From Allobosea sp. OK403 (GTDB taxonomy: Bacteria; Pseudomonadota; Alphaproteobacteria; Rhizobiales; Beijerinckiaceae): DNA of 64,000 bases. Where the stretch lies: positions 620,001 to 684,000 of the forward strand of contig NZ_FOQV01000002.1 of NCBI RefSeq assembly GCF_900113835.1, read 5' to 3'. The translations under genes were made by a program, and so were the position numbers. Of this stretch, positions 46,468-49,629 are shown one piece after another. Every line of letters starts with the position of its first letter. Position 1 is the stretch's first letter. The notes beneath the pieces were generated by a model that made no database searches, was not told the DNA's origin, and worked only from the letters and a program-made list of their open reading frames with translations.

Positions 46468-46998
46468 TTAGCGGCCAAGCCCGAGCCGCGCCTGCAGGTT
46501 GGCGAGCTGGTCCTGCACCGGGTTGGCCTGCTCGCGGGCAAGGCCGGCGCCCGACATCTGGCCTTCGAGATGGCGGATGCGCTCCTGCAGGCGGACGGAA
46601 TGCGCCATCAGATCGCGCAGCGTCTGCGGCAAGCGCGCCACCTCGTCATGGGCCGGCTGCCCCGCAGCGTCCGACATCCTGACCTTGTTGTTCTCGGCGC
46701 GGGCCTGCTCGGCTGTCATCTCGCCTTCGGCGACGGCGCGCTGGACCAGGAGCCAGGAGGCGATCTGCATCAATCGTGTCGTCAGGCGCATGCTCTCGGT
46801 GGCGTAGGTGAGCGCGACCTCGCGCGGCAGGGCCGCCGACTCGGCACGCCCGTCGCCGTCGAGATAGGACGCCGTCTGCTCGACCAGCCCCATGCCCTCG
46901 CGAAACAGCAGCATGAAGGCGTCTGATTTGACGAAACCGCGCGCAAAGGAGATCGCGCCATCGTCAACCTGCGGCTCCAGCATCAGCACATCGTTCAT
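46468..46998 (-). CDS. rcdA: RcdA family protease adaptor (DUF1465)
   Basis: Homologue of Caulobacter RcdA, an adaptor that helps ClpXP degrade the master regulator CtrA and other substrates. The 176-residue helical protein shows the DUF1465 features: ISFARGFVKSDAFMLLFREGM, EQTASYLDGDGR, YATESMRLTTRLMQIASWLL (about residues 70-90), and a disordered Gly/Gln-rich C-terminus. The ATG at 46998 has AAGGGG upstream. CtrA-like sites lie in the upstream region. Confidence 0.85.
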   Translation of the reverse strand: MNDVLMLEPQVDDGAISFARGFVKSDAFMLLFREGMGLVEQTASYLDGDGRAESAALPREVALTYATESMRLTTRLMQIASWLLVQRAVAEGEMTAEQARAENNKVRMSDAAGQPAHDEVARLPQTLRDLMAHSVRLQERIRHLEGQMSGAGLAREQANPVQDQLANLQARLGLGR

Positions 46999-47101
46999 CG
47001 CGGTGTTCCCCTTCGGCACAACAGCGTTCGCGTCAGGGACGCGGCAACGCTTCAGGCCGACAACACCGCAAGGATAACGCCGAAGCGCGATCAGGGCTGC
47101 G

Positions 47102-47117: not shown

Positions 47118-47138
47118 CTTAACGGGATAATGCAGCTG

Positions 47139-47228
47139 AAAAAAGAGCCGCCCTGGGGCGGCTCGAAGGTCAACAGGGAGGCGTCAAACAGAGTGGGCAG
47201 GAGCCACTCGACATCCAGACAAACTGGA
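47139..47228 (-). ncRNA. Candidate small RNA upstream of rcdA
   Basis: Three consecutive hairpins on the minus strand: CCAG-TTTGT-CTGG (47215-47227), GAGTGG-CTCCTGC-CCACTC (47191-47209), then the terminator GAGCCGCC-CCAG-GGCGGCTC (47145-47164) followed by six U. The second loop CTCCTGC and the single-stranded CCTCCC can pair with ribosome binding sites, as in known alphaproteobacterial sRNAs. A CtrA-like box and two GANTC sites lie just upstream. No supported gene covers it. It could be only the 3' end of the DUF1192 transcript. Confidence 0.5.
47145..47164 (-). terminator. Strong intrinsic terminator
   Basis: An 8-bp GC stem GAGCCGCC / GGCGGCTC with a 4-base loop followed on the minus strand by TTTTTT (47139-47144). 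It ends the candidate small RNA and any read-through from the DUF1192 gene, so rcdA needs its own promoter. Confidence 0.85.
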
Positions 47229-47234
47229 CAATGC

Positions 47235-47268
47235 GATTCATACTTTGGAATCGTTAAGAGACCCTTAA
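47235..47268 (-). promoter_or_regulatory. CtrA-like box and two CcrM (GANTC) sites
   Basis: TTAA-GGGTCTC-TTAAC on the minus strand (47253-47268) fits the CtrA consensus exactly. Two GANTC methylation sites (47235-47239 and 47248-47252) lie immediately downstream. Adjacent CtrA and CcrM sites are typical of cell-cycle controlled promoters. They would drive the candidate small RNA. Confidence 0.5.
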
Positions 47269-47291
47269 TGACGCAGGGGCAGAAGGCTGGC

Positions 47292-47492
47292 TCAGCCCGG
47301 TTTCCGGAAAAAGGCGTCGGCCGCCGAGCGCGAAGCATCCTTCTTGGCCCGGGCTTCGGCCAGCCGCTCGATCTCGGCCTTCAGTACCTCGACGCGCAGG
47401 TCGATCTCGGCCAGCGACAGCATCGAAAGATCCTGCCCGATTTCATGCACGGATTTCGGCTTCGGACGGTCATCCTCTGGAAAGATCGACAT
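47292..47492 (-). CDS. DUF1192 family protein
   Basis: A 66-residue protein with the DUF1192 core (LSLAEIDLRVEVLKAEIERL, residues about 25-44), a short acidic N-terminus beginning MSIFPEDD, and a C-terminal FFRK segment. Function unknown; widespread in alphaproteobacteria and often near this quinone oxidoreductase. Start 47492 chosen by homology; the frame runs to 47573 into a repeat. Confidence 0.8.
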   Translation of the reverse strand: MSIFPEDDRPKPKSVHEIGQDLSMLSLAEIDLRVEVLKAEIERLAEARAKKDASRSAADAFFRKPG

Positions 47493-48906: not shown

Positions 48907-49629
48907 GTGTCACAACCCCCGCTGATGCCGAAGGCCACCGCGGTCTGGCTCGTCGAGAACACCTCCCTGACCTTCGAGCAGATCGCCGAGTTCTGCAAAC
49001 TCCACCCGCTCGAAGTGCGCGGCATCGCCGATGGCGAAGTCGCCGCCGGCATCAAGGGGCTCGACCCGATCACCTCGGGCCAGCTCACCCGCGAGGAGCT
49101 CGAGCGCGCCGCCAAGAACCCGAGCCACCACCTCAAGCTCGCCGAGCGCAGGGTGAAGGTGCCGGAGATGAAGAAGTCCAAGGGGCCGCGCTACACTCCG
49201 GTCTCCAAGCGCCAGGACCGCCCCAACGCGATCCTCTGGCTGCTGCGCAACCATCCCGAGCTCAAGGACGCGCAGATCATCCGCCTGATCGGCACGACCA
49301 AGTCGACCATCGCCCAGATCCGTGACCGTACCCACTGGAACGCCCAGACACTGTCGCCGATCGATCCGGTCAGCCTCGGCCTGTGCTCGCAGATCGATCT
49401 CGATTTCGAGGTCGGCCGCGCCGCCAAGGACCGTCCCGCCGCGATCGCCGAGATCGGCTCGACCCTGCTCCCCGCCGAGGAGACGACCGCGCCGGCGCCC
49501 GCGCTCAACCAGACCTTCGCCGATATGGGCAAGCCGAAGCGCCAGGAAGAAGAGGCCATCGACGTCGATTCGGTCTTCTCCAAGCTGAAGCAGCTCAAGC
49601 GCCCGGCCGAGGACGACGAGGAAGACTGA
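48907..49629 (+). CDS. trcR: Cell cycle transcriptional regulator TrcR (DUF1013)
   Basis: Alphaproteobacterial regulator known as DUF1013 or TrcR, reported to act in cell-cycle transcription. The 240 residues start at a GTG (MSQPPLMPKATAVWLVENTSL), contain two helix-turn-helix-like parts (FEQIAEFCKLHPLEVRGIADG and PELKDAQIIRLIGTTKSTIAQI, about residues 22-42 and 120-141), and end in an acidic low-complexity tail. AGGAG lies seven bases upstream. Confidence 0.85.
   Translation: MSQPPLMPKATAVWLVENTSLTFEQIAEFCKLHPLEVRGIADGEVAAGIKGLDPITSGQLTREELERAAKNPSHHLKLAERRVKVPEMKKSKGPRYTPVSKRQDRPNAILWLLRNHPELKDAQIIRLIGTTKSTIAQIRDRTHWNAQTLSPIDPVSLGLCSQIDLDFEVGRAAKDRPAAIAEIGSTLLPAEETTAPAPALNQTFADMGKPKRQEEEAIDVDSVFSKLKQLKRPAEDDEED

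Follow-up and report, generated by a model that had tools for sequence, protein, structure and literature searches.

A CtrA-type promoter before a small RNA of family RF02356 in the interval upstream of rcdA

Does the short interval between the DUF1192 gene and the DUF1465 gene of this genome encode a small RNA (sRNA), and could that RNA belong to the cell-cycle circuit? The alphaproteobacterial cell cycle has CtrA as its master regulator, rcdA encodes an adaptor for CtrA proteolysis, and the DUF1465 (PF07323) gene is taken here to be rcdA. An earlier note on the window (the whole 64-kb stretch of DNA that was analysed) had described in this interval three hairpins with a U6 terminator, a loop CTCCTGC and a single-stranded CCTCCC, and an exact CtrA box with two GANTC sites upstream, and had proposed an sRNA controlled by CtrA and CcrM. 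The hairpins and the terminator were located on the minus strand, both C-rich motifs are where the note had put them, and the exact box is present upstream of the sRNA as the only TTAA-N7-TTAA in the window (Table 1).

Table 1. Features of the sRNA locus and its flanking genes (positions in the window)
Feature	Position	Strand	Remarks
sRNA	47139..47230	minus	RF02356 (BjrC1505); predicted start about 47229-47232, length about 91 nt
RF02356 match	47138-47274	minus	whole model, positions 1-140
CtrA-type box TTAAGGGTCTCTTAAC	47253..47268	minus	TTAA-N7-TTAA pattern, kept in place across loci
-10-like element TATGAAT	47236..47242	minus	fits aligned-promoter consensus TAT-N-A-N-T
Stem-loop 1 (GTCCAG..CTGGAT)	47213..47229	minus	covariation
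Stem-loop 2 GAGTGGCTCCTGCCCACTC (GAGTGG-CTCCTGC-CCACTC)	47191..47209	minus	C-rich loop; covariation
Core GACGCCTCCCTGTT	47172..47185	minus	includes anti-Shine-Dalgarno CCTCCC; mostly single-stranded
CCTCCC	47176-47181	minus	inside core GACGCCTCCCTGTT
Intrinsic terminator	47139..47164	minus	8-bp stem 47145-47164; U6 47139-47144
GANTC sites	47235-47239 and 47248-47252		two, upstream of the sRNA
DUF1192 gene, upstream neighbour	47292..47492	minus	PF06698, E 5.2e-22
DUF1465 gene (rcdA), downstream neighbour	46468..47019	minus	PF07323, E 4.6e-55

A catalogued RNA family

The interval encodes a genuine small RNA of a known family. An Rfam search of the window returned RF02356 (BjrC1505) at 91.7 bits (E 8.8e-18), over the curated cut-off of 50, and the RNA itself, being already catalogued, is no novelty. 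BjrC1505 is reportedly an sRNA of Bradyrhizobium japonicum, said to come from a 2012 study by Madhugiri. The fold of the matched stretch (47138-47274) has a stability z of -4.5, none of 200 shuffles being as stable, while a generic terminator scan is unremarkable on its own (one terminator found versus 1.7 expected in 2.5 kb).

The stems proposed in the earlier note covary. In an alignment of 49 of the 60 listed loci, the same sequences from which the tested structure was derived, 93.5% of cells in the three helices are paired, 14 of 20 pairs have changed on both sides, and 65 cells carry double changes where shuffles average 13.7, a count that none of 500 shuffles reaches; every covariation measure falls when the partners are slid. 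Double changes affect six of the eight pairs of the terminator stem (98.2% of cells paired), four of six in stem-loop 2 (95.9%) and four of six in stem-loop 1, which is the least regular (84.9%). Outside any conserved helix, the core GACGCCTCCCTGTT is almost without variation in the same 49 loci. Covarying stems together with an invariant strand are the pattern that would be expected of a base-pairing sRNA, a pattern that names no target.

Family RF02356 is widespread in the order and thins out beyond it. Matches over the cut-off were found in 38 of 80 genomes of the taxonomic family, 175 of 249 genomes of the order and 17 of 385 genomes of a class sample (the 17 include three genomes of the order: G000, G026 and G114), rising to 46/80, 205/249 and 40/385 at E 0.001; none of 14 control genomes has one. 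A model of the RNA only, with the promoter part excluded, matches in 98 of the 385 class genomes, though some of its weakest matches may be other C-rich sRNAs; the strict filters of the genome searches lose weak matches. Carriers of the core among the matches listed include Bosea, Mesorhizobium, Phyllobacterium, Hyphomicrobium, Devosia, Roseibium, Parvibaculum and, from another order, Sneathiella, and the closest-looking sRNA region among the loci compared is that of Bosea sp. LC85. The window sRNA is a Bosea-like genome's copy of an old alphaproteobacterial family. Some class genomes, such as G529, hold at least two copies, and in G695 copies lie side by side (L083, G695:C6:79514-79860).

A CtrA-type promoter

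The sRNA is preceded by a conserved promoter of its own, of CtrA type, as the earlier note had suspected from the single locus. Between 45 and 110 nt before the core, 205 of 248 loci have the pattern TT[AT]A-N7-TTA[AG], where shuffles average 6.6 and 6 of 16,625 control windows taken from the same loci contain it; its start lies mostly 79-88 nt before the core. These 248 are the members of a set of 264 loci that have 120 nt upstream and a unique sequence; within the 264, 118 are the matches listed from a core scan, of which at least 118 exist.

Because the RF02356 model spans the promoter, choosing loci by its score favours those with a box, and we therefore counted the groups apart and took as the answer a promoter-blind set, consisting of named loci chosen among the matches listed by core and terminator only (113 of 118; five were dropped for too short an upstream stretch). 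With at most one mismatch, TTAA-N7-TTAA is found in 112 of these 113 loci among the matches listed, where 7.2 are expected. Within the order the box is present in 97 of 101 loci (4.9 expected; L022 is not counted in this group). Outside it, the counts are 25 of 26 for RF02356 loci (3.3 expected) and 12 of 18 for weaker matches of the RNA-only model (1.4 expected), the box being absent at this threshold from the other six. One locus, L158, was omitted as a repeat of L086.

Aligning the 198 promoters that have a box, with the box columns fixed by choice and the -10 and flanks left free, brings out a -10-like TAT-N-A-N-T 26-32 nt after the box start, each base of which is present in 64-71% of the loci. 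Its position implies that transcription would begin near 47230, about 38 nt beyond the first base of the box, which would give an RNA of about 91 nt. From that start it follows that positions 1 to about 45 of the 140-position RF02356 model (window 47231-47274) appear to be promoter and not RNA; many of the 5' pairs of the model are non-standard in the window match. If the 5' third of RF02356 is indeed promoter, the Rfam model should be trimmed.

The two GANTC sites exist, but they are not a conserved feature of the RF02356 family. Among 83 of 88 loci (L022, L070, L077, L080 and L084 were left out), both sites occur at the window's places only in the window's own locus and in two others of its genus. 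GANTC is not enriched in the promoters (33 of 248 loci, 27.9 in shuffles), a count that speaks against the CcrM control proposed in the earlier note, and against control by CcrM or GcrA through a conserved promoter GANTC.

The genome itself (G000) has one ctrA match, 92% identical to a Caulobacter CtrA sequence. At E 1e-60, ctrA had no match in 4 of 31 order genomes, three of which carry the sRNA (G088, G095 and G105; 67-88% complete). From the sequence of the promoter we infer that CtrA controls the sRNA.

The place beside rcdA and what the box may serve

The linkage to rcdA on which the earlier note had remarked is conserved: in 119 of 146 loci the sRNA is followed by rcdA, and in 107 it is preceded by the DUF1192 gene, in each case on its own strand. 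Neither gene is found in the other orientation in any of the 146, and neither was detected within the stretch examined in 14. The gene for TrcR, which Pfam describes as a transcriptional cell cycle regulator, lies nearby on the plus strand (window 48907-49629), and it is near the sRNA also in 27 of 176 loci, repeats included.

With at most one mismatch, the box precedes the sRNA in 110 of 118 rcdA-bearing loci (7.0 expected) and is present within 200 nt after the terminator in 32 of the 118 (3.7 expected). The comparison of the two counts indicates that the conserved CtrA signal between the DUF1192 gene and rcdA lies for the most part before the sRNA; since the second also exceeds expectation, CtrA may serve both the sRNA and rcdA. 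Sinorhizobium meliloti Ak57 has a box after the terminator too. In S. meliloti, according to passages of PMC4433202, CtrA ChIP-seq gives a peak at the rcdA promoter and CtrA depletion leaves rcdA without significant change; this might be accounted for if the bound box belongs to the sRNA.

The explanation that we favour, with a probability of about 0.7, is that the locus specifies an sRNA which CtrA activates and which acts in trans through an anti-Shine-Dalgarno core. Phosphorylated CtrA would bind the TTAA-N7-TTAA box, at about positions -38 to -23, and switch on transcription by sigma-70 polymerase; the resulting RNA, about 91 nt long, would end at its own terminator, short of rcdA. The exposed GACGCCUCCCUGUU core would then pair in trans, presumably with the use of Hfq, with the Shine-Dalgarno regions of mRNAs, perhaps helped by the C-rich loop of stem-loop 2, and the paired mRNAs would be less translated while CtrA is active. 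Activation by CtrA and repression at Shine-Dalgarno regions are proposed by analogy with the RNAs CcnA and SisA.

Four other explanations were weighed. CtrA might use the box for rcdA, driving a long-leader rcdA mRNA of which the short RNA would be an attenuated or processed leader. The conserved gene order agrees with this, as does a prediction, in the text available of PMC2877005, of conserved CtrA control of rcdA in a group of alphaproteobacteria. A covarying terminator sits between the box and rcdA, however, some rcdA genes have a post-terminator box of their own (the 32 of 118 loci above), and the S. meliloti depletion result points the other way, which makes this explanation unlikely.

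We likewise consider it improbable that CtrA represses the sRNA or that another TTAA-binding regulator uses the box. In the 198 aligned promoters the box occupies the place of the -35 element, a position that suits an activator and a repressor alike; no -35 hexamer of their own is visible in these promoters, though, and the spacing resembles that of the ccnA promoter, whose CtrA box is placed at -23 in the passages seen of PMC8959179, both of which favour activation by CtrA.

A promoterless origin, in which processing of the DUF1192 transcript leaves the RNA as its 3' tail, would fit the frequent place of the DUF1192 gene upstream on the same strand, but the box and the -10 keep a steady distance to the RNA while the distance to the DUF1192 gene varies between loci, leaving this origin very improbable. 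A small ORF as the product, suggested by an ATG-started 14-codon frame through the core in the window, was rejected by eye on the aligned loci and has next to no chance of being right, as its start and stop are not retained elsewhere and the core shows little variation even at third codon positions.

Known systems, targets and meaning

The two systems that lend the favoured reading its analogies each resemble the window sRNA in part. CcnA of Caulobacter crescentus is likewise a noncoding RNA behind a CtrA box (near -23), and its proposed action is at ribosome-binding sites (parts of PMC8959179). CcnA lies at the replication origin, measures 182 nt and acts on ctrA and gcrA. The window sRNA lies between the DUF1192 gene and rcdA, and it pairs no better than shuffles with the leaders of ctrA (mean z 0.04 over 25 leaders) or gcrA (mean z 0.17 over 29), control genes giving 0.01 to 0.06. 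For rcdA leaders the mean z is -0.28 (sd 1.35, 120 loci), a slight shift at most. These pairing tests are crude, in that accessibility is ignored and the start of the match is taken as the start of the gene.

In the alpha-R8 sRNAs (MmgR, SisA-D; RF00519), as in the window sRNA, a hairpin and the terminator flank a single-stranded core that is rich in C. Passages of PMC12559287 give the alpha-R8 core as UUUCCUCCCU, locate these sRNAs mostly beside an FGase gene, describe no common promoter motif for SisA-D, and describe SisA as Hfq-associated, with a C-rich core that pairs upstream of start codons and represses; this core, similar to that of the window sRNA, represses a reporter via its 5' UTR. 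Membership of the window sRNA in alpha-R8 was rejected, the match to RF00519 scoring 23.2 bits against a cut-off of 41 and the core being GACGCCTCCCTGTT and not UUUCCUCCCU. EcpR1 and GspR of S. meliloti are similar in so far as they act on cell-cycle genes (PMC7143759, in part); their loci (for GspR, between SMc03844 and SMc03845 in the text seen of PMC5928217) and targets differ from those of the window sRNA.

Searches with the core gave nothing firm on targets either. An exact 12-mer complement of the core stands before the ATG of an SDR-type dehydrogenase gene in 5 of 26 genus genomes (loci L325, L329, L331, L364 and L374), which may reflect common descent; the window's own genome has no exact 12-mer complement beyond the sRNA. 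Of 136 such sites listed in 111 order genomes, 80 were examined: two fit the sRNA by a strict pattern, and 21 have a frame of at least 70 codons starting just downstream, no two of whose 21 proteins are related at E 1e-4. The remaining 57 may include further copies of the sRNA. With no firm target from leader pairing or 12-mer searches, the case for a cell-cycle role is made by the promoter and the gene neighbourhood alone.

To our knowledge, few RNAs are tied to CtrA. If an sRNA keeps both a CtrA-type box and a place beside rcdA, throughout one order and here and there in the class, it would constitute a direct RNA output of the CtrA circuit. More broadly, we regard it as an even bet that the CtrA circuit in much of the Alphaproteobacteria has an ancestral RNA output beside rcdA, that the conserved site credited to rcdA is mostly that of the sRNA, and that, for as long as CtrA is active, the RNA keeps a group of mRNAs silent. 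If so, CtrA binding at rcdA with no effect on rcdA would be explained, and earlier assignments of CtrA sites at rcdA deserve a second reading. The RNA family is known; its CtrA-type promoter was not found in the papers searched, and no published link of this RNA to CtrA turned up in the titles, abstracts and passages covered, though such a link may already be in print.

The S. meliloti relative of the window sRNA is probably sm84/SmelC671, given a length of about 80 nt in the part seen of PMC2573895 and of 100 nt by sequencing in that of PMC2873474, and assigned to the intergenic region SMc03988/SMc03989. The available text of PMC2573895 gives it a predicted sigma-70 promoter and does not contain the word CtrA; passages of PMC3927594 unite it with ReC71 of Rhizobium etli in a Rhizobiales family with extensive microsynteny. 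In strain Ak57, the interval between the DUF1192 and DUF1465 genes scores 34 bits with the RNA-only model and 27.2 bits with RF02356 itself. From its predicted start to the end of the U-run, the sRNA there would measure 100 nt, which equals the sequenced length, and its size, strand and map order agree with those published for sm84, while the map distance to the 6S RNA is off by 1.3 kb (12.8 versus 14.2 kb); the Ak57 sRNA is therefore probably sm84/SmelC671. The Ak57 record concerned (CP090106.1; L295, L301) is a 3.7 Mb "pSymB" that carries rpmE, rcdA and the 6S RNA, and may be a mislabelled chromosome.
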